A stretch of 64,000 nt of DNA from Micromonospora zingiberis (GTDB taxonomy: Bacteria; Actinomycetota; Actinomycetes; Mycobacteriales; Micromonosporaceae): positions 62,001-126,000 of the forward strand of contig NZ_SJJR01000007.1 in the NCBI RefSeq assembly GCF_004331455.1, written 5' to 3'. A program made the translations under genes and the position numbers. A model generated the notes under the pieces. That model was not told where the DNA came from and searched no databases. It was given only the letters and a program-made list of their open reading frames with translations. Below, one piece after another: positions 13,489-62,438 of the stretch. Each line of letters opens with the position of its first letter. The first letter of the stretch is position 1.

Positions 13489-15579
13489 ATGCGAGTGAGT
13501 TTCGACATCGGCGGCACCTTCACCGACCTGGTCCTGCTGGACGAGCGATCCGGCCGCGCCTGGCTGGGCAAGTGCCTGACCACCTACGACGACTTCAGCC
13601 GCGCCATCGCCCAGGGCATCCGTGAACTGCTCGGCACCGGCGACCTCGGACCCGCGGACGTGGACCACCCGGTCGTCGGTGCGACCACCCTGGTCACCAA
13701 CGCGCTCATCGAACGCCGGGGTGCCGACACCGCCCTGATCACCACCCGAGGCTTCGGCGACACCGTCGAGATCGGCCGGGAATGGCGCTACGACCTGTAC
13801 GACCAGCAGCTGCAACTGCCCGATCCGCTGGTGCCTGTGCGGCAACGGTTCGAGGTGACCGAACGGCTGCGCGCCGACGGCGCCGTCCACACGCCCCTCG
13901 CTCTCGACGAGATCGGCCGGATCGCGGACCGGATCGCCGAGAGCGGCGTCGAGTCGGTGGCCGTCTGCCTGCTGCACTCGTACGCGAACTCCGCGCACGA
14001 GGAGGCGGTCGGCGCCGTCCTCGCCGAGCGACTGCCCGGCGTGCCGGTCACCCTCTCCAGCCACCTGGTGCCGGTGATCCGCGAGTACGAGCGCACCGTC
14101 ACCACGCTCGCCAACGCGTACGTGCGGCCGGTGGCCGGCGAGCACTTCGCCGATGTGGAACGCGCCATCGGTCAGGTGGGCATCGCCCAACCGCTGGTGT
14201 TGATGCAGTCCAACGGTGGTGTCGTCTCCACGGCGACGGCCCGGCAGTATCCGCTGCGGCTGCTGGAGTCGGGGCCGGCGGCCGGCGCGATCGGCGCCGC
14301 GTACGTCGGGCAACGGCTCGGCCTGGACCGGCTGATCGCCTTCGACATGGGCGGCACCACCGCCAAGGTGTGCGTGGTGGAGAACGGCACCCCGGCCGTG
14401 CACCACGGCTTCGAGGTGGGTCGGGTGCACCGGCTCAAGCCCGGCAGCGGACTGCCGGTGGCCATGCCGGTGGTCGACATGCTGGAGATCGGTGCCGGCG
14501 GTGGTTCGATCGCCGCCCTGGATCCACTCGGGCTGCTCAAGGTCGGGCCGCACAGCGCCGGATCCCGCCCCGGCCCCGCCGGGTACGGCCTCGGTGGCGA
14601 ACAGCCGACCGTCACCGACGCCGACCTGGTCCTCGGCTACCTCGACCCGGACTACTTCCTCGGTGGCCGGATGAGCCTCGACGTCGATGCCGCCCGGCGG
14701 GCCATGCTCGCCCACCTCGGGCCGGCCTTCGACGACGACCCGGTCGCCGCAGCGGCGGGCATCGTCCGGGTGGTCGACGAGCACATGGCGCTGGCGATGC
14801 GGGTGCACGCCACCGAACGCGGACACGACCCGAGGACCTTCACGATGCTCGCCTTCGGCGGCGCCGCGCCGGTGCACGCCGCCCGGGTGGCCCGGATCCT
14901 CGGCCTACGCCGGGTCGTGATCCCGACCGCCGCCGGGGTGCTGTCGGCGACCGGTCTGCTCGTCGCGCCGCCGATGGTGGAGACCTCACGGACCCGGCTG
15001 ACCGAACTCGCGCAGTGGTCGGACGCCGCCGTCGCCGAGGTGTACGCCGGGCTGGTCGGCCAGGCCGCGGCCGAACTCGCCGAGCCGGTCGACCGGGTCG
15101 AACGCTTCGTCGACATGCGCTTCGTCGGCCAGGGGTTCGAGATCGAGGTGCCGGTGGCCGACACCGACGGGCCGGAGCAGTACCTGACCCGGTTCGCCGC
15201 CGAATACCAGCGGGTCTACGGCGTCCGTCCGGACTACCAGCGGGCGGAGGTGGTGACCTGGCGAGTCCGCGCCTACGGCCGCTTCACCCAGCCGGAACTG
15301 GTCCGGACCGCGCCCGACACCCGCGCGGCGGCGGACGCGCCGCGTACCCGGCAGGTGTGGTTCCCGGAGACCGGCCTGACCGAGGCGCCGGTGCTGCGGA
15401 TGCTGGCCCAGCCGCCGGGCACCCGGGTCGTCGGCCCGGCGATCTTCCAACTGCCGGAGAGCACCGCGGTGGTGGGCCCGGGGGACCTGGCCGAGGTGGA
15501 CCGGGACGGCAACCTGCACATCATGGTGAACCTGCCCTCGGCCAACCAGGACATTCGGCGCAGCGAGGTGGCGGCATGA
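13489..15579 (+). CDS. hyuA: Hydantoinase/oxoprolinase family protein, subunit A
   Basis: 696 residues, normal for HyuA. The N-terminus has the actin-like ATPase motif DIGGTFTDLVLLDE. Further family marks are GATTLVTNALIERRGADTALI, SSHLVPVIREYERTVTTLANAYV, MQSNGGVVS, DMGGTTAKVCVVENG, IGAGGGSIA and the HAARVARILGLRRVVIPTAAGVLSATGLL block. The family uses ATP to open five-membered cyclic amides (hydantoins, 5-oxoproline) together with subunit B, encoded at 16480. ATG at 13489 is chosen over an upstream in-frame start because of the AAGGA site at 13476. Its stop overlaps the next start. Exact substrate unknown. Confidence 0.9.
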   Translation: MRVSFDIGGTFTDLVLLDERSGRAWLGKCLTTYDDFSRAIAQGIRELLGTGDLGPADVDHPVVGATTLVTNALIERRGADTALITTRGFGDTVEIGREWRYDLYDQQLQLPDPLVPVRQRFEVTERLRADGAVHTPLALDEIGRIADRIAESGVESVAVCLLHSYANSAHEEAVGAVLAERLPGVPVTLSSHLVPVIREYERTVTTLANAYVRPVAGEHFADVERAIGQVGIAQPLVLMQSNGGVVSTATARQYPLRLLESGPAAGAIGAAYVGQRLGLDRLIAFDMGGTTAKVCVVENGTPAVHHGFEVGRVHRLKPGSGLPVAMPVVDMLEIGAGGGSIAALDPLGLLKVGPHSAGSRPGPAGYGLGGEQPTVTDADLVLGYLDPDYFLGGRMSLDVDAARRAMLAHLGPAFDDDPVAAAAGIVRVVDEHMALAMRVHATERGHDPRTFTMLAFGGAAPVHAARVARILGLRRVVIPTAAGVLSATGLLVAPPMVETSRTRLTELAQWSDAAVAEVYAGLVGQAAAELAEPVDRVERFVDMRFVGQGFEIEVPVADTDGPEQYLTRFAAEYQRVYGVRPDYQRAEVVTWRVRAYGRFTQPELVRTAPDTRAAADAPRTRQVWFPETGLTEAPVLRMLAQPPGTRVVGPAIFQLPESTAVVGPGDLAEVDRDGNLHIMVNLPSANQDIRRSEVAA

Positions 15580-16469
15580 GATCCCTCGACTGGCTGGACC
15601 GGATCGGGCTGCCACCCGGTGACCCGGCGCAGCCGGCCACCAGCACCGGCCGATTCGCCGACGGTGGCTGGTACAAGTGGGAGGTCGCCGGGGCGCTCGA
15701 CGCGGCCTCGGTGCGCCGGCTGACCGAACTGCTCGCCCCGCACGGGGTACGGCTGCACCAGGCGACCAACACGGTCGGCACGATGCGCTACCTCGACGCC
15801 GAGGTGGTCGACCTGGTGCAGACCTGCCGGGAACTGGGCGTGCAGCTGCGGATGGCGGTCGGCCCGCGGGGCCTGTTCGACATCGGCGGACAGAAACTCG
15901 CCGCCGGCCCGGTCGCCGCCGCCAGCGCCTACCGGCTGCGCGGCACCGACCAGCTCGCCCAGGCCGTCGAGGACGTGGCACACGCCGTCGACCTCGGCGT
16001 ACGCGGCTTCCTCGTCTTCGACGAGGGACTGTTGACCGTGCTGGACCGGCTCCGGGCCGATGGGGTGCTGCCGGCCGAACTGCGGCTGAAGGCCTCGTCC
16101 AACATGGGCGCCGGCAATCCCGCCCACGCGAGGCTGCTCGCCCAGCTCGGCGCCGACTCGGTCAACCTGCAACGTGATCTCGACGTCCGCATGCTGGCCG
16201 CGGTTCGGGCCGCCACCGACGTGGCACTGGACCTGCACACGGACAACCCACCCGGCACCGGCGGTTTCGTCCGGGGCTACGACGTGCCGCAGATGGTGCG
16301 GGTCGCCGCCCCGGTCTACCTGAAGACCGGGAACGCCGCCCAGGACTTCTCCGACGAACCGCCGTCACCACGGCAACTCGCCGCGATCACCCACCAGCTG
16401 CTGCTCGACCAGCAGTTGGTGACGCGACTCGAACCCTCGGCGACCCCATCCGACCAACCCGAGTTCTAG
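15576..16469 (+). CDS. U32-peptidase-like TIM-barrel protein between hyuA and hyuB
   Basis: 297 residues, start ATG overlapping the hyuA stop. The second half reads LRLKASSNMGAGNPAHARLLAQ, then LGADSVNLQRDL, LDLHTDNPPGTGGFVRGYDV and APVYLKTGN, which resembles proteins annotated as the U32 peptidase family, a TIM barrel. The first half has VRLHQATNTVGTMRYLD and LRMAVGPRGLFDIGG. Classical collagenase-type U32 cysteine motifs are not evident, so proteolysis should not be assumed. Position between the two hydantoinase subunits implies a step in the same pathway or assistance to the complex. Confidence 0.55.
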   Translation: MRSLDWLDRIGLPPGDPAQPATSTGRFADGGWYKWEVAGALDAASVRRLTELLAPHGVRLHQATNTVGTMRYLDAEVVDLVQTCRELGVQLRMAVGPRGLFDIGGQKLAAGPVAAASAYRLRGTDQLAQAVEDVAHAVDLGVRGFLVFDEGLLTVLDRLRADGVLPAELRLKASSNMGAGNPAHARLLAQLGADSVNLQRDLDVRMLAAVRAATDVALDLHTDNPPGTGGFVRGYDVPQMVRVAAPVYLKTGNAAQDFSDEPPSPRQLAAITHQLLLDQQLVTRLEPSATPSDQPEF

Positions 16470-18828: not shown

Positions 18829-19338
18829 TCAGTGTCCCTCGGTGCCGTCGAGCAGGGCTTGGCGCAGCGCCAGTCGGTGCTCGCGGCGGATCTGCGCCTC
18901 GCGGTAGCGGCGTCGGTCGCCGTCGGTCTGGGGTAGCAGCGGCGGCACCGACCGGGGTTGGCCCTCGTCGTCGACGGCGACCATGACCAGGTGGGCGGTG
19001 GCCACGTCGGTCGGTGGTACCGCTCGGTCCCACCGGTCGGCGGTGACCTTGACGGTGACCTCCATGGAGCTGCGTCCGGCCCAGGTGATGTGGGCATCGA
19101 CGTGGACGACGTCGCCGACGCGGACCGCGCGGAGGAAGGCGGTCTCGTCGATGGCGGCGGTGACTGCCGGGCCGTCGGAGTGCCGGGCGGCGACCACTCC
19201 GGCGACGGAGTCGATGAGGTTGAGGATCCGGCCGCCGTGGACTGTGCCCATCAGGTTGGTGTGGTGCTGGTCCATGATCTGCGACAGGGTCAGGTGGGAG
19301 GCCGACGGTGGTCGGCCGGCGAGCGTGGTGTCGTGCAT
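18829..19338 (-). CDS. Acyl-CoA thioesterase, hotdog fold
   Basis: 169 residues from ATG 19338 (GAGGACGGA upstream). The sequence matches the YciA/acyl-CoA hydrolase pattern: SQIMDQHHTNLMGTVHGGRILNLIDSVAGVVAARHS, then FLRAVRVGDVVHVDAHITWAGRSSMEV. The Asp in NLIDSVAG is in the usual catalytic position. It hydrolyses acyl-CoA to free acid and CoA in the cytoplasm; chain-length preference is unknown. A cobalamin riboswitch (19472-19676) lies upstream in the same orientation with no other gene in between, an unusual pairing for this enzyme. Confidence 0.85.
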   Translation of the reverse strand: MHDTTLAGRPPSASHLTLSQIMDQHHTNLMGTVHGGRILNLIDSVAGVVAARHSDGPAVTAAIDETAFLRAVRVGDVVHVDAHITWAGRSSMEVTVKVTADRWDRAVPPTDVATAHLVMVAVDDEGQPRSVPPLLPQTDGDRRRYREAQIRREHRLALRQALLDGTEGH

Positions 19339-19443
19339 GGGGCGTCCGTCCTCGGGAAGGATGCCACCGATCCGTGGGCGCGCACGTCGAGGAACACGCT
19401 GTTTCGGCGCGTCACCCGCCCGACCCGCCCTCGAGGTCGACGG

Positions 19444-19676: not shown

Positions 19677-19861
19677 TGATCTGGTCAGACGACCGGCGGG
19701 CCAGGGGTGCCTGCGGTGGGTTGTCTCGATCTCTCCGTCGCCGTCCGCCGGTCTTGGCCGTGGATCGTGGCCGCGATTGGTCGACGGCCGTGTCGCCGTT
19801 GCATACCGTGCGCGGTTGGTCGCGGATTGACAGTGGCTGTGTGGGGGGCGAGACTGGCGCG

Positions 19862-19980
19862 ACAACTGAACAACCGCGTGTGCGTGCGGGGGAAGTCCGG
19901 TCGAAGTCCGGCACTGGCCCGCAACGGTAGGTCGTTGGGTGCAATCCCGGCGGCGAGTCCGAATACCTGCCGTACCCGCG
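19862..19980 (+). ncRNA. Cobalamin riboswitch (plus strand, first)
   Basis: Core strings GGGGAAGTCCGG-TCGAAGTCCGGCACTG, GCCCGCAACGGTA and GCGAGTCCGAATACCTGCC are present. A closing stem of 10 positions with one mismatch pairs 19875-19884 with 19971-19980. The motif ACAACTGAA just upstream is shared with the riboswitch at 21762. About 110 nt separate it from the start at 20089. CGGAA...TTCCG around the GGAAAGG ribosome site of that gene could form a small sequestering hairpin, suggesting translational control. Confidence 0.92.
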
Positions 19981-20088
19981 AGTTTCTGCTCCTCACCCGT
20001 CGTGGCCCACGGGTCGGAGGCCGGCCAGCCGCGCCGTTGCCGGGCGGGCCGGGTTTCTGACGACCGCCGGGCCGGAAAGGCGCTTCCG

Positions 20089-21132
20089 ATGGTCGTTCGC
20101 CTGAGCCGGCACCGCCTGCTCGCGCTGTTCTGCGGTGTACTCGCCGCTCTCACTCTCGCCACACCGGCGATCGCCACACCCACGCAGGTCGGCGCCGTCC
20201 GATCCGATGCGGCCGCCGGCTGGTTGGCCCGACAACTTGTCGACGGGGAACGCTTCGAGGCTGTCTTCGGCGGCGTCGCGTACCCGGACCAGGGGTTGAC
20301 CCTGGATGCGGTCTTCGCGTTCGCCGCCGGCGGTGTCGCCGAAGACTTCGGCGCTCGGGCCCTGGCGTGGGTTACCCGGCCGGATGTGCGCGACGGCTAC
20401 CTCGGTGACGGTGTCACCGAGGCGTACGCGGGCGCGACCGCCAAGCTCGCTCTCGCCGTGGCGGTCCGCGGCGGTGACTCGACCGACATGGGCGGTGTGG
20501 ATCTCATCGCCCGGCTGCGGTCGCTTCAGTCGCCTGGCGGCCGGTTCACCGACCGGTCCGCGTGGGGTGACTTCAGCAACGCGTTCAGCCAGTCCTTCGC
20601 GATTCTCGCGCTGGACCGGACCGCGCACGGCGTGCCGGCGGCCGCCGCCGGCTGGCTGGCGGGTACCCGGTGCCCGGACGGCGGCTTTCCGCTGCTGCCG
20701 GCGCAGCCGGTTTGTGTCTCCGATGTGGACGCAACCGCCATCGCGGTGCAGGCGTTGCGGGCCGCCGGCCGCAGGGCTGATGCCGCCGCGGGACTGCGTT
20801 GGCTGGTCTCCGTCCAGCGCGCCGACGGCGGGTTCACCAACGCGGATGGCGTCGCGAACGCCAACAGCACCGGGTTGGCAGCCCAGGCGTTGCGTGACGG
20901 TGGACGGTCGCTGGCCTGGGCGCGGGCCCGGGTGTTCCTGGCCGGTCTACAGATCGGCTGCGCCGGCCCGGTCGCCGACCGGGGCGCGGTGGACTTCGAC
21001 GGCGGCCTCTTCGATTCCAGTACCGCCACCCGCGCCACCGCCCAGGCGCTGCTCGGCCTGACCGGCACCGGATATGCCCGGCTTTCCACCACCACCGCGA
21101 CCACCGGCGCACCCACCTTGCCCTGCCACTGA
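20089..21132 (+). CDS. Secreted alpha/alpha-barrel protein resembling the alpha domain of intrinsic factor/transcobalamin
   Basis: 347 residues. A Sec signal peptide (MVVRLSRHRLLALFCGV, cleavage near ATPAIA-TP) is followed by about 300 residues of repeated helical hairpins of the terpene-cyclase/prenyltransferase toroid type: DVDATAIAVQALRAAG, NANSTGLAAQALRDGG, STATRATAQALLGLTG. The STGLA-QAL repeat is the one found in eukaryotic cobalamin-binding proteins (Pfam Cobalamin_bind). No DxDD or QW cyclase motif is present, so terpene cyclisation is unlikely. Transcribed behind a cobalamin riboswitch and followed 36 bp later by a DUF4430 protein. It has no membrane anchor. The proposed role is an extracellular cobalamin binder; this is inference from family and context. 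Confidence 0.78.
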   Translation: MVVRLSRHRLLALFCGVLAALTLATPAIATPTQVGAVRSDAAAGWLARQLVDGERFEAVFGGVAYPDQGLTLDAVFAFAAGGVAEDFGARALAWVTRPDVRDGYLGDGVTEAYAGATAKLALAVAVRGGDSTDMGGVDLIARLRSLQSPGGRFTDRSAWGDFSNAFSQSFAILALDRTAHGVPAAAAGWLAGTRCPDGGFPLLPAQPVCVSDVDATAIAVQALRAAGRRADAAAGLRWLVSVQRADGGFTNADGVANANSTGLAAQALRDGGRSLAWARARVFLAGLQIGCAGPVADRGAVDFDGGLFDSSTATRATAQALLGLTGTGYARLSTTTATTGAPTLPCH

Positions 21133-21168
21133 CCGGCGACAGATTCCGTCCCATCCCAAGGAGTACTC

Positions 21169-21657
21169 ATGTCCCAGGTCCATGATCCCGTCCGTCGATG
21201 GCTCGCGGGCCTCGTGGTGGCGGCTGTCGCCGCCGTCGGGCTGATCGCTACCGAGCCGTCTCCACGGGCTGCGCAGGCCGCCGCGTGTACCGGCACGTCC
21301 GGAGTCACGGTGGTGGTCGACTACGGCCCGCTCGGCGGCGGCGTCCAGGTCGCCTGCGCGCTCGGTGACCCCGCCACCGGGCTGGCCGCCCTGCAGGGCG
21401 CCGGTTTCACGGTGGCCGGTACGCAGCGGTGGGGGTTGGCCTTCGTCTGCCGGATCAACGGTCAGCCGACCGCCGCGACGGAACCCTGCATCAACACCCC
21501 GCCGGCCAGCGCGTACTGGTCGTACTGGCACGCGTCCGGCAGTGGCGCCTCCTGGACGTACAGCACGCTCGGGGCGACCAGCTACAACCCGGCGCCCGGC
21601 ACGGTCGAGGGCTGGTCCTTCGGCTCCGGCACGGCACCCAGCATTACCGCCCCCTGA
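21169..21657 (+). CDS. Secreted DUF4430 protein resembling the beta domain of intrinsic factor/transcobalamin
   Basis: 162 residues; ATG with strong AAGGAG site. Signal peptide to about residue 38 (cleavage AQAAA). The single mature domain has the DUF4430 layout: VTVVVDYGPLGGGVQVACAL, TGLAALQGAGFTVAGT, PPASAYWSYWHASG and GTVEGWSFGSG. DUF4430 is the fold of the C-terminal beta domain of transcobalamin and intrinsic factor. Four cysteines are in the mature domain and could form two disulfides. It pairs with the alpha-barrel protein in the same riboswitch-controlled transcript; both are soluble and secreted. Confidence 0.82.
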   Translation: MSQVHDPVRRWLAGLVVAAVAAVGLIATEPSPRAAQAAACTGTSGVTVVVDYGPLGGGVQVACALGDPATGLAALQGAGFTVAGTQRWGLAFVCRINGQPTAATEPCINTPPASAYWSYWHASGSGASWTYSTLGATSYNPAPGTVEGWSFGSGTAPSITAP

Positions 21658-21761
21658 CCTGTGTACCCTGCATGAGCCGTTGACGTGCCGGGTGTCGCTC
21701 GCCACGCTGGCGCCGAGAGGCGACCGGGCGGTACGGTGACGACACCCGGTGCGCCGGGTGC

Positions 21762-21865
21762 ACAACTGAATACGTCCTGTATGGGGGGAAGCCGGTAGAA
21801 GCCGGCGCTGACCCGCAACCGTGAGCGAGATCTGTCTCGCGAGCCGGAATGCCCCGCACAGGACG
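21762..21865 (+). ncRNA. Cobalamin riboswitch (plus strand, second)
   Basis: A perfect 8-bp closing stem CGTCCTGT (21773-21780) / ACAGGACG (21858-21865) encloses GGGGGGAAGCCGGTAGAAGCC, GCGCTGACCCGCAACCGTGAG and GAGCCGGAATGCCCCGC, the conserved cobalamin-aptamer elements. The ACAACTGAA motif directly 5' of the stem is shared with the riboswitch at 19862. It precedes the anchored-binder/ECF operon beginning at 22002. Confidence 0.93.
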
Positions 21866-21969
21866 AGCGGCTTCCACTGTCGAGGTCTACAGGGTGGAGT
21901 CCGGGCAATCGAGCTACGGCATTTCCTCGCGGCCACGCGAGCGGATGCCGCCGCCGGTGCCTTCCGGAG

Positions 21970-22004
21970 CTTTCACCGACCGCTCTGCGAAAGGCACCCC
22001 CTTG
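21970..22004 (+). promoter_or_regulatory. Ribosome site with candidate sequestering stem and TTG start
   Basis: GAAAGG at 21989 sits 7 nt before TTG 22002. CTTTC at 21970-21974 can pair with GAAAG at 21989-21993, which would hide the ribosome site. This fits translational switching by the upstream riboswitch and favours TTG over upstream in-frame ATGs. Confidence 0.5.
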
Positions 22005-23468
22005 CCCACGTTTGCGCTCCGGCGCGTCGGCGCCGTCACCGCCACCGCACTTGTCGTACTCGCAGCCACCCCCCTCGGCGTGGGTGCCGCGCCGTCGCCG
22101 ACTCACGCCGTTGCCGCGCGTGATGCCGCGACCTGGCTCGCGGGGGAGTACGCCGACGGCGTGCTGCCCGGCCCGTTCACTCCCGAGGACTGGGGGCTGA
22201 GCATCGACGGAGTGATCGCCCTCACCGCCGCTGGTGTGGCTGGCGCAACTCGACAGGCGGCGACCGCGCAGATTGCCGCGCACGTACGGTCCTACAACAG
22301 CTACGACGACTGGGGCATCGAGGGCTTCACCGACGGTGGCGCCACCGCGAAACTGCTCTACGTTGCCTCCGCCGCCGGCGCCGACCCCACCGACTTCGGC
22401 GGCTGGGACCTACGCGCCGAAACCCTGACCCTGCTCTCCGGGACGGGCACCGGTCACCAGCACGGCCGGATCACCAGCCGCACCACCGAGGCGACCGGCC
22501 CGGACCCGAGCAACACCTTCGACCAGTCCTTTGCCGTGCTGGGTCTGGCCCGCAGCGGCGGCACGCCGCAAGAGGCCGTCGACTTCCTCATCCGGCAGCA
22601 GTGCACGGCCGGCGGCTTCCGGCTCTACCCCGATGCCGACGGCGCGCCGTCGGCCTCCTGCGATGCCCAGGGCAACGCCACCCTCGACGTCGATTCGACC
22701 GCCATGGCCGTCCAAGCATTGCTCGCGGCCGGCGCCACCGCTGCGGACGAGGCCGCACAGCGCGGCGCGGACTGGCTGGTGGCGCAGCAACGCGCCGACG
22801 GGTCGTTCGGCGGGTCGGGGCCGACCAGCGGCGCGAACTCCAACAGCACCGGCCTGGCCGGGCAGGCCCTCGCTGCGGCGGGGCGCGACGCCGAGGCGGC
22901 ACGGGCCGCAGCGGCCCTGGCGGCGCTGCAGCTCACCGCCGCCAACGCTGGAGCCGCGGCGGCCGACGCCGGCGCCATCGCCTACGCCAGTGACGCACTG
23001 ACCGAGGCGGTCCGCGACGGGATCGCCGAGAACTTCCGGGACCAGTGGCGCCGCGCCACCGCGCAGGCGCTCCTTGGACTGGCCCAAATACCGCTGGGCC
23101 GGATCGGCCTCGATCTTCCGCCCTCCGGCGAGCCCACCGCGTCGCCAACCGGGCCACCGACGCCAACCGCGCCACCGTCGCCGACCAGGTCACCCACGCC
23201 TACCGCCGTACCGACTCTGACCGTGTCGCCCACACCGAGCACCTCGCCCACCGGCGGTCCGACGCCGAGCGCCGTGCCGTCCACGCCCACGCCCACGCCT
23301 ACCGTGACCGCGCCGACTCCCACCTCCTCTGCCACCAGTCCCGCCGCGGGCGGGCCGGGTCGCCTGCCGACCACCGGAGTGGCGATCGGCGGGTACGTGC
23401 TCACCGCGCTGCTGCTGCTCGGTGGGGGAGCGGTGCTGCTGGTGCTCGGCCGCCGGCGGGCCACATGA
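22002..23468 (+). CDS. Cell-wall-anchored alpha/alpha-barrel cobalamin-binder-like protein with LPXTG-type tail
   Basis: 488 residues from TTG 22002, which puts a signal peptide (PTFALRRVGAVTATALVVLA) at the N-terminus; upstream ATGs would add about 50 unrelated residues. Residues 30-370 are the same helical-hairpin toroid as the protein at 20089, with DSTAMAVQALLAAG and NSNSTGLAGQALAAAG repeats. A Pro/Thr/Ser linker of about 85 residues follows, then LPTTG, a membrane helix and a basic RRRAT tail, the sortase-substrate arrangement. It would hold the barrel at the cell surface. First gene of a five-gene operon with ATGA overlaps leading to an ECF importer. Cobalamin binding is inferred. Confidence 0.8.
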   Translation: MPTFALRRVGAVTATALVVLAATPLGVGAAPSPTHAVAARDAATWLAGEYADGVLPGPFTPEDWGLSIDGVIALTAAGVAGATRQAATAQIAAHVRSYNSYDDWGIEGFTDGGATAKLLYVASAAGADPTDFGGWDLRAETLTLLSGTGTGHQHGRITSRTTEATGPDPSNTFDQSFAVLGLARSGGTPQEAVDFLIRQQCTAGGFRLYPDADGAPSASCDAQGNATLDVDSTAMAVQALLAAGATAADEAAQRGADWLVAQQRADGSFGGSGPTSGANSNSTGLAGQALAAAGRDAEAARAAAALAALQLTAANAGAAAADAGAIAYASDALTEAVRDGIAENFRDQWRRATAQALLGLAQIPLGRIGLDLPPSGEPTASPTGPPTPTAPPSPTRSPTPTAVPTLTVSPTPSTSPTGGPTPSAVPSTPTPTPTVTAPTPTSSATSPAAGGPGRLPTTGVAIGGYVLTALLLLGGGAVLLVLGRRRAT

Positions 23469-24421
23469 GGACCCGGGCGGCCCGGGCCTCGCTCGTTCTC
23501 GCCCTGGCCGGCGCCAGCGTCCTGGTCGGACCGGTACCGGCGGCGGCTGCCGGCAGCGCCGGGTACTGCCCGGACAGCGGCGGCGTCACCGTCGTGGTGG
23601 ACTTCAAGGAACTCGGCGGCGGCACGGTCGTCCGATGTGCCCCAGGCGACCAGGCCACCGGCCTCGCGGCGTTGAAGAACGCCGGCTTCCAGATAGCCGG
23701 CACGCTGCGCTGGGGCGAGGGATTCATCTGCCGGATCGAGGGCAAACCCTCGGCCAGCGAGGAGAAGTGCGTCGACACACCTCCGGCCAGCGCCTACTGG
23801 TCGTACTGGCACGCACCCAACGGCGGCAGCTGGACCTACAGCGACAAGGGTGTGCTCAACCGCAAACCACCGGCGGGCAGCTTCGAAGGCTGGTCGTTCT
23901 CCCTCAACCGCAACACGGACAACGCACCCCGACCAGGGGTGGCGCCCACCCGGCCGGCACCGCCACCGCGCACCACGCCACCGGCACCGCCACCGCGCAC
24001 CACGCCACCGGCACCGCCACCGCGCACCACGCCACCGGGGTCCCCACCCCGTCCTTCCTTGCCACCGACCGCCCCACCACCGGCCGCCGGTGGACCTGCC
24101 GCGCCGTCCGGAAACACACCGACCGGCATGGCCGGGCCGCCGTCAGCTACCACCGCAGGTGGCTCGACCCTGGCCGGCAGCCCGCCTGTCCCCACGGCGG
24201 AGGCACCGACGACAGGCGCTGGTGTCCTGCCGCCCGGGGTCGCCCCCGCTACACCTCCGGACGAGTCGACGAACGCGTTCCCACCGACCGAGGTCAGCGC
24301 CACCCGTGACGCCGGTGGGCTTCCGGTGGGCACCCTGGCCGGGCTGCTCCTGCTGGTCGCGCTTGCCGGCGGTGGGATCGTCGCGGCCCGCCGTCGGCGA
24401 AGCGTCGAGCCGGATGACTGA
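23465..24421 (+). CDS. Membrane-anchored DUF4430 protein (beta-domain partner)
   Basis: 318 residues; ATG overlaps the previous stop. Signal peptide to about residue 30, then a DUF4430 domain to about residue 155 that closely matches the secreted protein at 21169 (TGLAALKNAGFQIAGTLRW, PPASAYWSYWHAPNGGSWTY, GSFEGWSFSL). A Pro-rich spacer of about 130 residues contains PAPPPRTTP repeats. A C-terminal helix (LPVGTLAGLLLLVALAGGGIVAA) and RRRR stop-transfer anchor it in the membrane. It is placed to act with the anchored alpha-barrel protein and the ECF transporter encoded downstream. Confidence 0.82.
   Translation: MRTRAARASLVLALAGASVLVGPVPAAAAGSAGYCPDSGGVTVVVDFKELGGGTVVRCAPGDQATGLAALKNAGFQIAGTLRWGEGFICRIEGKPSASEEKCVDTPPASAYWSYWHAPNGGSWTYSDKGVLNRKPPAGSFEGWSFSLNRNTDNAPRPGVAPTRPAPPPRTTPPAPPPRTTPPAPPPRTTPPGSPPRPSLPPTAPPPAAGGPAAPSGNTPTGMAGPPSATTAGGSTLAGSPPVPTAEAPTTGAGVLPPGVAPATPPDESTNAFPPTEVSATRDAGGLPVGTLAGLLLLVALAGGGIVAARRRRSVEPDD
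23953..24037. repeat. 27-bp tandem repeat in the DUF4430 protein linker
   Basis: Three near-identical 27-bp units coding PAPPPRTTP, in frame, lengthening the spacer between the beta domain and the membrane. Confidence 0.8.
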
Positions 24422-25664
24422 TCGGAGCCCCGCCGGCAGCGGCGTTTCCCCGCGGCTGGCGGAGGCACCGCAGGACGCCCGGTCCGCCATGACGGGGACC
24501 GGGCGGCTACCCCGGGCGTTGCATCCGGGCGCGTGGTGGCTGTGGGCGTTCGGCCTGGCGACCGCGGCCAGCCACACCACCAATCCGCTGCCGCTGGCGC
24601 TGCTCATCGCCGCCGCCGCGCTGGTGGTCGTCCGCCGCCGCGGTAACGCTCCCTGGGCGTTCGCGTTCCGGCTGTACCTGGTGCTCGGTGCGGTGATCGT
24701 GGCCATGCGGGTCGTGTTCCGCCTCGTTTTCGGCGGCGGACAGGGCGAGCACGTCCTGCTTCACCTGCCGGAGATCCCGCTGCCCGCCTGGGCGGCCGGC
24801 ATCCGATTGTTCGGCCCGGTCGCCGCCGAACAACTGCTCGGCGGCTTCTACGACGGACTGCGCCTGGCGGCGATGCTCGTCTGCCTCGGTGCCGCCAACG
24901 CTCTGGCCAACCCGAAACGCCTACTCAAGGCGGTCCCCGGTGCCCTGTACGCGGTCAGCACGGCAGTGGTGGTCGCGCTGTCGGTCGCCCCGCAGCTGGT
25001 CGAGAGCGTGCTGCGGGTACGCCGGGCACGACGGCTGCGTGGCGCCGCCGGACAGGGTCTGCGTGCCCTGCGGGGGATCGCTCTGCCGGTGTTGGCCGAC
25101 GCCCTGGACCGCTCCCTGGCCCTGGCGGCGGCGATGGACTCACGCGGCTACGGCCGTACCGCCGCGATCCCGGCCGGCCAGCGTGCCCTCACCGGCGGGC
25201 TGGTGCTCGCCGGACTGGTCGGTGTCTGCGTCGGCACGTACGGGCTGCTCGATGCCACCGTGCCCGGCTACCTCGGCCTGCCGATGCTGCTCGCCGCCCT
25301 GGCAACGGCCGTCGTCGGGATGCTGCTGGCCGGCCGTCGGGTCCACCGTAGCCGCTACCGGCCGGACCGCTGGCGGATCACGGAACTCGCTGTTGCCGGC
25401 TGCGGGGCGGCCACTGCCGCAGCGATGATGGCGGCCGGATCCGCGGACCCGGACCGGCTCTACCCGCCGGTCAGCCCGCTCACCTGGCCCGAGCTGACCC
25501 CGCTGATGCTCCTGACCATCGTGGTCGCGGTGGCCCCGGCCTGGCTGGCGCCGCCGCCGGCGCTGGCGGCGAAGCCCGCCGTTGAGTCGGCGCCCAATCC
25601 ACCGGACGGCACGACCCGCAGCGCGCCGAGGCGCGACACCAGGCAGCCGGAGACACCACGATGA
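24414..25664 (+). CDS. ECF transporter T component (CbiQ/EcfT family)
   Basis: 416 residues; ATG at 24414 lies 8 bp inside the previous gene. After an N-terminal cytoplasmic stretch there are several membrane helices. The coupling helices carry the family Ala-Arg-Gly-type motifs: RRARRLRGAAGQGLRALRG near residue 205 and AAAMDSRGYGRTAA near residue 240, which contact the ATPases. An added C-terminal helix pair and Pro-rich tail make it longer than a usual EcfT (about 250). It couples ATP hydrolysis to the S component encoded at 27289. Confidence 0.88.
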   Translation: MTDRSPAGSGVSPRLAEAPQDARSAMTGTGRLPRALHPGAWWLWAFGLATAASHTTNPLPLALLIAAAALVVVRRRGNAPWAFAFRLYLVLGAVIVAMRVVFRLVFGGGQGEHVLLHLPEIPLPAWAAGIRLFGPVAAEQLLGGFYDGLRLAAMLVCLGAANALANPKRLLKAVPGALYAVSTAVVVALSVAPQLVESVLRVRRARRLRGAAGQGLRALRGIALPVLADALDRSLALAAAMDSRGYGRTAAIPAGQRALTGGLVLAGLVGVCVGTYGLLDATVPGYLGLPMLLAALATAVVGMLLAGRRVHRSRYRPDRWRITELAVAGCGAATAAAMMAAGSADPDRLYPPVSPLTWPELTPLMLLTIVVAVAPAWLAPPPALAAKPAVESAPNPPDGTTRSAPRRDTRQPETPR

Positions 25665-27292
25665 TCGAGTTCGATCGGGTCACCGTCCACTACGCCGAGG
25701 CCCGCGAACCGATGCTGCGCGAGGTGGACCTGCACATCCCCGAGGGGGAGCTGTGTCTGGTCGCCGGCCGTACTGGCGCCGGCAAGTCGACCCTGTTGCG
25801 GGCCATCAACGGGCTGGTGCCGCACTTCACTGGCGGCACCCTGTACGGCAGCGTCACCGTGCAGGGGCGCGACACCCGCAGTCATCCTCCACGCGACCTG
25901 GCCGACGTCGTCGGAGTCGTCGGCCAGGACCCCCTCGCCGGCTTCGTCACCGACACCGTCGAAGAGGAACTGGCCTACGGCATGGAACAACTCGCCCTGC
26001 CCGCGTCGGTCATGCGTAAGCGCGTCGAGGAAACCCTCGACCTGCTGGGCATCGCCGAGCTGCGGGACCGCCCCTTGCGGACACTGTCCGGCGGGCAGCA
26101 GCAGCGGGTCGCCATCGGCGCGGTGCTCACCAGCCACCCGCAGGTACTCGTCCTCGACGAGCCGACCTCCGCCCTGGACCCCACCGCGGCGGAGGACGTG
26201 CTGGCCACCGTCACCCGCCTGGTCCACGACCTCGGTGTCACCGTCGTCGTCGCCGAACATCGTCTCGAACGTGTCGTGCAGTACGCCGACCGGCTGCTCT
26301 ACCTTCCCGGCGACGGCACGGTCGTCGACGGAGAACCGGCCGCCGTCCTCGCCGACATCGACCTCGCCCCACCCCTTGTCGAACTGGGCCGTGCCGCAGG
26401 CTGGGCACCCTTGCCGTTGTCCGTCCGCGATGCCCGCCGCCGGGCGGCGAACCTCCGGCAGCGGCTCGCTGACGCCACTGCACCGCCGACGGCGCCGGCA
26501 CATGATGGCCCCCCGGCGCTGACCGCCCGCAAGATCGTGGTCCGCTACCCCGGCACCGTCGCCGTGGCCGGCGTCGACCTCGACCTGCCCGCCGGCCAGG
26601 TCGTCGCGCTGATGGGCCGCAACGGTTCCGGCAAGTCCAGCCTGCTCTGGGCGTTGCAGGGCAGCGGCCCCCGACAGGTCGGAACGGTCACCGTCACCGG
26701 CCCCGACGGCGCCATCGACCCGAAGACACTTCCCGCCGGCCGCGCCCGACGACAGGTCGGACTGGTCCCGCAGACTCCGGGGGACCTGCTCTACCTGGAG
26801 CGGGTGGACGCCGAGTGCGCCCAGGCCGACCGCGAGTCCGATGCACCCGCAGGCACGTGCCGGGCACTGCTGGACCAGCTCACCCCGGGGCTGCCCGGCG
26901 ACCAGCACCCGCGTGACCTGTCGGAAGGGCAGCGGCTGGCCCTCGCTCTCGCCGTTCAACTCACCGCCGCACCACCGGTCGTGCTACTCGACGAGCCCAC
27001 CCGGGGACTCGATTACCTCGCCAAACGGCAGTTCGCCGCCGTTGTCCGACGGTTGGCCGGCGAAGGCCGGGCGGTCGTGGTCGCCACCCACGACGTCGAG
27101 CTCGTCGCCACGCTCGCCGACCGGGTCGTCGTCATGGCACAGGGGGAGATCGTGGCCGACGGTACCGCCGCCGAGGTCATGCTCGCCTCACCCGCGTTCG
27201 CCCCGCAGGTTGCCAAGGTCATGGCACCCGAGCCCTGGCTGACCGTGGACCAGGTCACCACCGCGCTGGCCGACGCCGGAACACCGGGATGA
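25661..27292 (+). CDS. ECF transporter ATPase, fused A and A' domains
   Basis: 543 residues with two ABC domains in one chain; ATG overlaps the previous stop. Domain 1: Walker A GRTGAGKST (residue 40), signature LSGGQQQR, Walker [14 protein letters not shown]. Domain 2 (from about residue 285): Walker A GRNGSGKSS, signature variant LSEGQRL, Walker B VVLLDEPTRGLDY. Each has an H-loop (VAEHRLER, ATHDVELV). The FVTDTVEEELAYG and LLYLERVD segments resemble ECF Q-helices. Fusion of the two ATPases is common in actinobacterial ECF systems. Confidence 0.92.
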   Translation: MIEFDRVTVHYAEAREPMLREVDLHIPEGELCLVAGRTGAGKSTLLRAINGLVPHFTGGTLYGSVTVQGRDTRSHPPRDLADVVGVVGQDPLAGFVTDTVEEELAYGMEQLALPASVMRKRVEETLDLLGIAELRDRPLRTLSGGQQQRVAIGAVLTSHPQVLVLDEPTSALDPTAAEDVLATVTRLVHDLGVTVVVAEHRLERVVQYADRLLYLPGDGTVVDGEPAAVLADIDLAPPLVELGRAAGWAPLPLSVRDARRRAANLRQRLADATAPPTAPAHDGPPALTARKIVVRYPGTVAVAGVDLDLPAGQVVALMGRNGSGKSSLLWALQGSGPRQVGTVTVTGPDGAIDPKTLPAGRARRQVGLVPQTPGDLLYLERVDAECAQADRESDAPAGTCRALLDQLTPGLPGDQHPRDLSEGQRLALALAVQLTAAPPVVLLDEPTRGLDYLAKRQFAAVVRRLAGEGRAVVVATHDVELVATLADRVVVMAQGEIVADGTAAEVMLASPAFAPQVAKVMAPEPWLTVDQVTTALADAGTPG

Positions 27293-28209
27293 CGACCGCC
27301 CTGCGGGTCGCCCCGCGCACCGCCGTCGTCCTGGCCCTGGCCTCCGTCGCCGCGCTGGCCACCTTCAGTTGGCCGTTCTTCGTGCCCGCCCAACCCGAGA
27401 GCATGGCCCGCACCACTGAGGCGCCACTGGTCTTCATCGCCGTACTACCGGTCCTGCTGGCCCTCGTCCTGGCCGAACTCAGCTCCGGCGGTATCGACAG
27501 CAAGGCCCTGGCGATGCTCGGCGTGCTCGCCGCCGTCAACGCCGCCTTACGTCCACTCGGCGCCGGCACCGCCGGGATCGAGACGGTGTTCTTCCTGCTC
27601 GTCCTCGCCGGCCGGGTGTTCGGGCCCGGCTTCGGGTTCCTGCTCGGCGCCATTTCGCTGTTCGCCTCCGCCCTGCTCACCGCCGGTGTCGGCCCCTGGC
27701 TGCCGTTCCAGATGCTGGCTGCCGCGTGGATCGGTCTCGGTGCCGGCCTGTTGCCCGCTCGGCTGCGGGGCCGGGCGGAGATCGCCGTGCTGGCCGGCTA
27801 CGGCGCGATCGCCGCCTACGGCTACGGGCTGCTGATGAACCTGTGGTTCTGGCCGTTCAGCACCGGCGCGGACACCCAGCTCTCCTACGTTGCCGGGGCG
27901 CCGGTGCTGGAGAACCTGCACCGCTTCGCGGTCTTCACGGCCGTAACCTCCACCTTCGGCTGGGACACTGGCCGCGCCATCACCACCGCCATGGCGATCG
28001 TCCTGGTCGGACCCGCCGTCCTGGCCGCACTTCGCCGCGCCGCCCGCCGCGCCGCCTTCGACGCACCGGTCACCTTCGCCACGACACGCGGGCCCGCACC
28101 GAGCGCGTCCGGGACGGATGTCGGGTCCCGCATGCGACTGCGGGACACCGGACAGCAGCCTCGCATCGAGGGTGATCCCTCGCCACCCCCCTCGCCGGCC
28201 GGGCGGTAG
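27289..28209 (+). CDS. ECF transporter S component, predicted cobalamin-specific
   Basis: 306 residues, ATG overlapping the previous stop. At least six membrane helices in the first 250 residues (LALASVAALATFSWPFF, LVFIAVLPVLLALVLAEL, PLGAGTAGIETVFFLLVLAGRVFGPGFGFLLGA, GLGAGLLPARLRG, YGYGLLMNLWFWPF). This matches substrate-specific S proteins. The last 55 residues are a low-complexity cytoplasmic tail. Specificity for cobalamin is inferred from the riboswitch and the linked binder genes, not from a known motif. Confidence 0.82.
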   Translation: MTTALRVAPRTAVVLALASVAALATFSWPFFVPAQPESMARTTEAPLVFIAVLPVLLALVLAELSSGGIDSKALAMLGVLAAVNAALRPLGAGTAGIETVFFLLVLAGRVFGPGFGFLLGAISLFASALLTAGVGPWLPFQMLAAAWIGLGAGLLPARLRGRAEIAVLAGYGAIAAYGYGLLMNLWFWPFSTGADTQLSYVAGAPVLENLHRFAVFTAVTSTFGWDTGRAITTAMAIVLVGPAVLAALRRAARRAAFDAPVTFATTRGPAPSASGTDVGSRMRLRDTGQQPRIEGDPSPPPSPAGR

Positions 28210-61790: not shown

Positions 61791-62438
61791 TCAGGCGTCG
61801 ACCAGCCCGGCTCGCCATGCCCAGGATGCGACCTCGACCCGGTTGCGTACGCCGAGCTTCGACTGCGCGGCAGCCAGGTGGGTCTTGACGGTGGACACCG
61901 CCACGAACAGCTCGTCCGCGATCTCCTGGTTGGTCAGTCCCCGGGCCACCGCCCGTACGACGTCGTTTTCCCGGTCCGTCAGGGCCTCCACCGGTGCGGT
62001 CGTCCGGACCTGCGGCCGGTGCCGGAAATGACGCAGCAGCCGGACGGTGACCTGTGGCGCCACCAGGACGTCGCCGCGGACGGCCGCTCGGACCGCCTCG
62101 ACCAGCAGGGCCGGTCCGCAGTCCTTGAGCAGGAACCCGCTCGCCCCGGACTGTAGGGCGGTGTCCACGTACTCGTCGTCGTCGAACATGGTGATGACGA
62201 CGACGGCGATCGGATCGGCCACGTCGGGACCCGCGAGCAGCCGGGTGACCTGTAGTCCGTCCAGGCCCGGCATCCGGATGTCCAGTAGGCACACGTCCGG
62301 GCGCAGGCGACGCGCCGCCTCGACCGCCGCTCGCCCGTCGGCGACGTCGGCCACCACGGTGATGTCCGGCTGGGCTTCCAGGATCATCCGGAACCCGACC
62401 CGCATCAGCTCCTGGTCATCGGCGATCAAGACCCGCAC
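61791..62438 (-). CDS. Two-component response regulator, NarL/LuxR family
   Basis: 215 residues; GTG 62438. Receiver: VLIADDQELMRVGFRMIL with acidic pair, phospho-Asp in DVCLLDIRMPGLDGLQV, and Lys in FLLKDCGPALLVEAV. LuxR-type HTH LTDRENDVVRAVARGLTNQEIADELFVAVSTVKTHLAAAQSKLGVRNRVEVASWAWRAG. All phosphorelay residues are intact. Downstream partner of the kinase encoded at 62618. Confidence 0.93.
   Translation of the reverse strand: MRVLIADDQELMRVGFRMILEAQPDITVVADVADGRAAVEAARRLRPDVCLLDIRMPGLDGLQVTRLLAGPDVADPIAVVVITMFDDDEYVDTALQSGASGFLLKDCGPALLVEAVRAAVRGDVLVAPQVTVRLLRHFRHRPQVRTTAPVEALTDRENDVVRAVARGLTNQEIADELFVAVSTVKTHLAAAQSKLGVRNRVEVASWAWRAGLVDA

Follow-up and report, generated by a model that had tools for sequence, protein, structure and literature searches.

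In a stretch of 64,000 nucleotides from the 6.5-Mb genome of Micromonospora zingiberis (positions 62,001 to 126,000 of contig NZ_SJJR01000007.1; hereafter the window), we identified a set of genes that, with a probability of roughly 0.8, encodes a scavenging system for cobalamin (vitamin B12) or a close corrinoid, with split, transcobalamin-like binders. The bacterium probably catches B12 outside the cell much like animals do. The set is tied to cobalamin by its riboswitches and by an energy-coupling factor (ECF) importer that travels with it. To our knowledge, little is known about the capture of B12 outside the membrane by Gram-positive bacteria that require it. The locus offers a riboswitch-marked set in a culturable genus, with split genes, so that the alpha and the beta half can each be tested on its own.

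The plus strand from 19800 to 28209 is organised in two units. The first comprises a riboswitch and the genes of one alpha and one beta protein; the second comprises another riboswitch, a second alpha-beta pair and the genes for the T, fused A-A' and S components of an ECF importer. The features are the following:

19800 to 19988, plus strand: cobalamin riboswitch of the secreted pair (RF00174, 33.0 bits; cut-off 31.5)
20089 to 21132, plus strand: alpha1, putatively secreted alpha/alpha-toroid protein without anchor (SCO2321_fam, E 4e-32, below the cut-off of that family)
21169 to 21657, plus strand: beta1, putatively secreted beta-grasp protein resembling the transcobalamin beta domain (model with a predicted local distance difference test score, pLDDT, of 94.4; Z 9.0-9.8 to transcobalamin, TC, intrinsic factor, IF, and haptocorrin, HC)
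21760 to 21904, plus strand: candidate cobalamin riboswitch of the anchored pair and the ECF genes (RF01482, 41.6 bits, below the cut-off of 50)
22002 to 23468, plus strand: alpha2, predicted toroid with Pro/Thr-rich linker, LPTTG and membrane segment (TTG start inferred)
23465 to 24421, plus strand: beta2, predicted TC-beta-like domain with Pro-rich linker and C-terminal membrane segment
24414 to 25664, plus strand: ECF T component, CbiQ family (PF02361, 30.3 bits; cut-off 25)
25661 to 27292, plus strand: fused ECF A-A' ATPase (two ABC_tran stretches by Pfam; ECF_ATPase_1, 282 bits, below the cut-off of 315)
27289 to 28209, plus strand: ECF S component (PF12822, ECF_trnsprt, 34.2 bits; cut-off 30.7)

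The original prediction, made from the sequence alone, had described two alpha proteins with STGLA-QAL repeats, one pair secreted without anchor and the other held by LPXTG or membrane anchors, the latter overlapping the importer genes; all of this agrees with what we found. The motif NSTGLAxQAL is common to alpha1 and alpha2. In alpha1 and beta1 the chain ends where the domain ends, while the C-terminus of alpha2, as read by eye, consists of the Pro/Thr-rich linker, LPTTG, a membrane segment and Arg residues, and that of beta2 of the Pro-rich linker followed by the membrane segment. Signal peptides of the window alphas and betas were likewise assigned by eye. The start of alpha2 was placed at the TTG at 22002, as compared to 21849 in the mechanical list of reading frames. 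The domains of beta1 and beta2 share 57% identity. Stop and next start codons overlap at every junction from alpha2 through S, so that T, A, A' and S are encoded together as overlapping reading frames, as in a dedicated ECF importer, with matches to CbiQ, ABC_tran and ECF_trnsprt. Five sortase-family matches over cut-off are present in the source genome, and among the reading frames of the related loci (L057-L126) a membrane segment or anchor motif was found at the C-terminus of 57 of 97 alphas and 66 of 123 betas.

The fold of beta1 was recognised by modelling. A Pfam search with beta1 and beta2 gave no match to DUF4430 (PF14478) at E up to 1, and PDB sequence searches with beta1 and with the beta profile returned nothing useful. 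The AlphaFold2 model of beta1, built on 49 alignment rows, had the pLDDT given above and a predicted template modelling score (pTM) of 0.89. When this model was compared with the PDB by Foldseek, the top 13 rows were transcobalamin (12) and haptocorrin (1), with E values of 0.024-0.21. Re-alignment gave Z scores of 9.8 for TC (7qbe), 9.7 for IF (3kq4), 9.5 for HC (4kki), 9.5 for the TC beta domain (5np4) and 9.0 for IF (2pmv), over 93-98 residues at 3.0-3.3 Å. A bacterial protein without assigned role, 3u7z, reached 9.6, and the next entry of another kind fell to 6.9. In the model, strands 45-48 and 52-59 follow helix 34-40, the place at which the transcobalamin-like clade carries an inserted hairpin that touches the ligand; the two strands may form such an insert or belong to the core. 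These comparisons support, for the modelled protein, the fold of the IF/TC/HC beta domain.

The same betas had been called DUF4430 proteins, a label that stands as a kinship and not as a Pfam match. Only one of 21 betas from relatives matched DUF4430 in Pfam (E 0.0023). The kinship comes through the predicted fold, through a modest match between the profile of the betas and that of 17 Pfam-detected DUF4430 domains (72 columns, P 6.7e-5; P 0.46 for the alpha profile as control) and through gene order. The DUF4430 profile, for its part, has 3u7z as its best, though weak, PDB match (E 0.067). All six stretches taken from genomes with Pfam-found DUF4430, which were picked for a nearby DUF4430 and weak S matches, have the order DUF4430-T-A-S-alpha; this shared gene order ties the window beta to the described family. 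These cassettes (L201-L206, other Actinomycetota) carry the alpha last and no riboswitch core by pattern. By predicted fold, the window betas belong with the transcobalamin-like clade and not with Pfam DUF4430.

In the PDB, the profile of the alphas finds the toroids of squalene-hopene cyclases. PF01122 was not reported by Pfam for the window alphas and was matched weakly by those of five of 23 relatives (best E 0.034). Alpha and beta occur as beta-alpha single chains, with one or more alphas, in seven loci (L054, L078, L104, L106, L114, L122 and L123); an eighth fusion, in L091, is cut within the beta domain by the start of the stretch. The fusion of Actinomadura hibisca (L106) was modelled with pLDDT 92.3 and pTM 0.81, and its toroid and the profile support an alpha/alpha toroid as the predicted fold of alpha; the model refers to this natural fusion, and the window alphas were assigned by profile. 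One alignment, A3, was unusable because in 71 of its 139 partial rows the N-termini of alphas had been placed on the beta domain, and A4, without the misplaced rows, was folded. The L106 chain (L106:9884-11431) comes near to a one-chain transcobalamin with reversed domain order and, as it ends at the toroid, would be a secreted single-chain binder.

The distribution of the genes was examined in 70 named loci, which derive from the best 80 of 291 relatives and are therefore near the query; distant members are represented only by a phylum sample and stretches fetched from it. Gene content was counted in the 55 long loci (17 kb or more), the 15 shorter ones being excluded. Alpha, beta, T, A-A' and S are all present in 52 of the 55, the incomplete ones being L065 (alpha, beta), L086 (beta) and L117 (no alpha); alpha and beta occur together in 53. 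In the phylum sample of 396 genomes, with S called at 140 bits at least, beta was found in 60 and S in 73, and neither in 323. Every genome with beta also contains S (Fisher p 1e-58, kinship of genomes being ignored). A survey of how often the pairs accompany ECF S components, which the original prediction had proposed, thus gave a clear association. The possibility that the 13 genomes with S alone break this link was considered and set aside: in six of them (G083, G165, G391, G409, G423 and G447) an alpha and a weak beta, scoring 22-39 bits, lie beside S, and the other seven end at a contig edge. Among 61 relatives, alpha and S were each found in 20, and both in 18.

A cobalamin riboswitch had been proposed at the head of both transcripts. 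For the first site this holds in the window itself. The second stays under both cut-offs there (for RF00174, 31.1 bits against 31.5) and is on its own marginal. When seven relatives were run against Rfam, the first site was over cut-off in five (L061, L066, L072, L080 and L083), and the second was over the RF00174 cut-off also in five (L061, L066, L072, L080 and L105). The riboswitch core pattern was found in 52 of the 70 named loci, with 107 matches in 1.26 Mb as compared to one in a block-shuffled copy; many of these directly precede a gene for alpha or beta, and others are located elsewhere. Seven Streptomyces loci negative for the pattern were also searched with Rfam, and three of them (L100, L116 and L118) carry a riboswitch, scoring 32.6-44.1 bits, immediately in front of a gene for alpha or beta.

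With respect to the need for B12, neither CbiC nor CobN, two markers of corrin synthesis, was found in the source genome, which contains seven matches over cut-off to B12-binding domains. Within the genus (37 genomes), CbiC was present in 4 of 14 genomes with the system vs. 16 of 23 without it (p 0.02, kinship ignored). The ligand might also be a cobalt complex, or a corrinoid other than cobalamin (cobinamide, pseudo-B12). We regard this as improbable: the T component does belong to the CbiQ family, named for cobalt transport, and regulation by a riboswitch is by itself not enough to define the ligand, but the Pfam matches of the operon proteins include no CbiM- or CbiN-type subunit, and beta shares its fold with proteins that bind cobalamin.

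Some observations weigh against the reading as a cobalamin scavenging system. No E value of beta1 in Foldseek was under 0.001 (the range being about 0.02-0.2), and the similarity to DUF4430 by profile is modest, declining when more betas are included (P 6.1e-4). The core pattern has no match in 18 of the 70 loci, 13 of which are from Streptomyces; among the seven of these searched with Rfam, L097 has two riboswitches about 7 kb away and L098, L099 and L117 have none. Thirteen of the 55 long loci contain a secreted beta without a secreted alpha in the stretch, which speaks against an obligate soluble pair. CbiC is present in the four Micromonospora genomes mentioned above, and G165 has a second copy of S (L191, G165:C8:221000-235000) that adjoins one ATPase half only, alpha, beta and T all being absent from the 14 kb around it. 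Finally, the toroid in the fusion model has drimenyl and squalene cyclases as its nearest solved structures, with Z near 25. As TC and IF are not among the 50 matches listed by either fold search with the fusion model, these data do not support a closer relation of alpha to the IF/TC toroid than to other toroids. Thus, the proposal that the proteins have the folds of IF and TC holds for the beta domain, for the toroid as such and for the union of both in one chain in relatives, and is not supported for that closer relationship.

The nearness to cyclases would also suit an alpha that is a secreted terpene-cyclase-like or other toroid enzyme, only incidentally regulated by B12. DxDD is the acid motif of cyclases. 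We consider this reading highly improbable and set it aside, since DxDDT occurs in none of 153 alpha domains, [DN]xD[A/S/T]T being found at that place in 117, and the alphas appear to be exported and are fused to or paired with a beta domain of ligand-binding type.

Under the scavenging reading, the proposed mechanism builds on what was found, namely the genes, anchors, riboswitches (the second marginal in the window), beta fold, toroid fold of the fusion, co-occurrence with S and two corrin-synthesis markers not found. From these we infer cobalamin as the ligand, a clamp formed by alpha and beta, and a hand-over from the secreted to the anchored pair and then to the ECF importer. When intracellular cobalamin is low, both riboswitches would permit expression of the operons, and the alpha and beta proteins would be exported. 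As in transcobalamin and intrinsic factor, one cobalamin molecule would be clamped by the beta-grasp domain on one side and the alpha toroid on the other. Away from the membrane, cobalamin would be gathered by secreted alpha1/beta1, or by beta1 alone in some species; at the cell surface, anchored alpha2/beta2 would keep it next to the dedicated S-T-A-A' importer for transport into the cell. A relay from the secreted to the anchored binder is plausible.

The two tiers were followed across the long loci, where a protein was counted as anchored if more than 25 residues follow the domain, some of these having neither membrane segment nor anchor motif. Secreted and anchored versions of both proteins are present in 25 of the 55; 11 have a secreted beta with an anchored pair, eight an anchored pair only and two an anchored fusion, and the rest are single cases. 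An anchored part accompanies the secreted one in 43 of 44 loci. In Salinispora and some Micromonospora, alpha1 is missing and beta1 is kept (L049, L050, L052, L080, L084, L085, L087, L088, L092 and L094, a set that includes some species fetched twice). In L050 and L052 the beta1 frame opens with an apparent alpha1 start, which we read as a probable loss of alpha1 by deletion. This apparent loss, with beta1 kept, argues that the secreted pair is not obligate and favours beta as the protein that captures the ligand first. By its title, 5np4 is an isolated TC beta domain with cyanocobalamin, which fits the loci that retain only beta1.

Of the 36 alphas that were labelled as secreted, 33 share one group of the alpha tree, with 100% support in the Shimodaira-Hasegawa-like approximate likelihood ratio test (SH-aLRT), which spans Micromonosporaceae, Streptomycetaceae and Pseudonocardiaceae. 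The three outside it are from L064, which lies at a contig end and is labelled as secreted for this reason, and from L090 and L116, which are uncut. The betas cluster as well. The label changes between secreted and anchored five times for betas and four times for alphas, as compared to shuffled means of 37 and 28. The trees are quick searches made without fusions and multi-domain chains, with warnings for long branches (alpha) and few columns (beta). Since secreted alphas of several families share one group, the split between the tiers is either old or has spread.

These data leave room for a tentative proposal, to which we give a little under even odds, of a two-tier cobalophore, where the secreted split transcobalamin captures cobalamin at a distance and passes it to its anchored paralogues and then to the dedicated ECF importer, the tiers having been separate since before several actinobacterial families parted, or having spread between them. 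If true, this would be a Gram-positive analogue of the IF/TC relay of animals and of haemophore relays. It is rather unlikely, but less so than a different ligand, that the secreted pair instead hoards cobalamin or denies it to neighbours, with no role as donor, and that the anchored pair alone feeds the importer. Such hoarding would agree with two observations. Among the 52 long loci where alpha is anchored, 10 contain no secreted part in the stretch, so that the importer presumably works without one, and in L096 and L105 (Umezawaea) and in L101 (Embleya) the secreted alpha is on the strand opposite to the ECF genes. The near-constant company of an anchored part in loci with a secreted one argues against it, and the single old group of secreted alphas suits partners better than a stand-alone weapon.

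The kind of system is already known as a prediction and an annotation, from a 2007 study and from a lipoprotein of Lacticaseibacillus. As far as the accessible text of the former goes, Burroughs et al. (2007; PMC1796856) described in bacteria a clade of the SLBB beta-grasp superfamily that resembles transcobalamin. Its members are secreted or anchored, a fused toroid may stand before or after the beta domain, and the genes lie in operons with CbiO/CbiQ, in hosts usually without B12 synthesis; the authors proposed B12 scavenging and a transfer to animals, whose intrinsic factor and transcobalamin would be of bacterial origin. The hosts named in that text for the clade are low-GC Gram-positives, planctomycetes and, less often, euryarchaea; actinobacteria are not named there for it, and the word riboswitch does not occur. 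The genes described here share with that clade, as it is presented in the same text, the TC beta-grasp fold, the association with a toroid, the signal peptide with Gram-positive anchors and the CbiO/CbiQ-type operon. Unlike that account, they are from Actinomycetota, with betas under Pfam detection, split genes, secreted and anchored sets and riboswitches. For Lacticaseibacillus, the accessible part of a proteomic study (PMC9963975) lists a protein as 'Additional lipoprotein component of putative cobalamin ECF transporter' and reports a DUF4430 gene adjoining rtpR. What is new here is the actinobacterial branch, the split genes, the riboswitch control and the old pair of secreted and anchored paralogues. 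Our searches of the open-licence literature, within the text accessible to us, found neither a binding assay on a bacterial member nor a description of the actinobacterial system, and the accessible text of a 2025 review on cobamides in mycobacteria (PMC12713380) mentions no such system.

Animal IF, TC and HC have the same beta-domain fold and the same make-up of toroid and beta domain; they are single chains with alpha first, whereas here there are two chains, or beta comes first when the two are fused. An actinobacterial ECF set, CbrTUV, is reportedly predicted for cobalamin. The cobalamin importer ECF-CbrT of Lactobacillus also relies on an ECF S component, CbrT, which shares one ECF module with other S components (PMC5997447, according to its accessible text). 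In ECF-CbrT the S component is for cobalamin, which for the window is suggested by the context of riboswitches and binders. Unlike ECF-CbrT, the window has a single dedicated operon for T, A-A', S and extracellular binders; the latter include toroid proteins and come in two tiers.

Two Streptomyces families of NCBIfam, SCO2321 and SCO2322, to which no function is given, correspond to an alpha and a beta adjoining the same S component. The alphas and betas of L188 and L196 are members over cut-off, and those of L198 score below. The window proteins form a separate branch far below the cut-offs (92.1-111.5 vs. 300 for the alphas with SCO2321; 29.4-36.3 vs. 85 for the betas with SCO2322). These unnamed families would thereby gain a likely role in B12 scavenging.

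A third riboswitch, absent from the original prediction, lies on the minus strand at 19672-19456 and is, with 95.8 bits, the strongest of the locus. It is upstream of a gene for a 4HBT acyl-CoA thioesterase (18829-19350, minus strand), which perhaps clears propionyl- or methylmalonyl-CoA under B12 shortage. A homologue of this thioesterase is present in 7 of the 55 long loci, in all seven with a riboswitch core on the same strand about 240-330 bases upstream. At two other places in the genome of M. zingiberis, genes that we interpret as class I NrdA/NrdB and MetE, the B12-independent isozymes, have a strong cobalamin riboswitch in front of them (L056:8563-12263 and 13496-15844), and a further riboswitch match is found at C13:95910.

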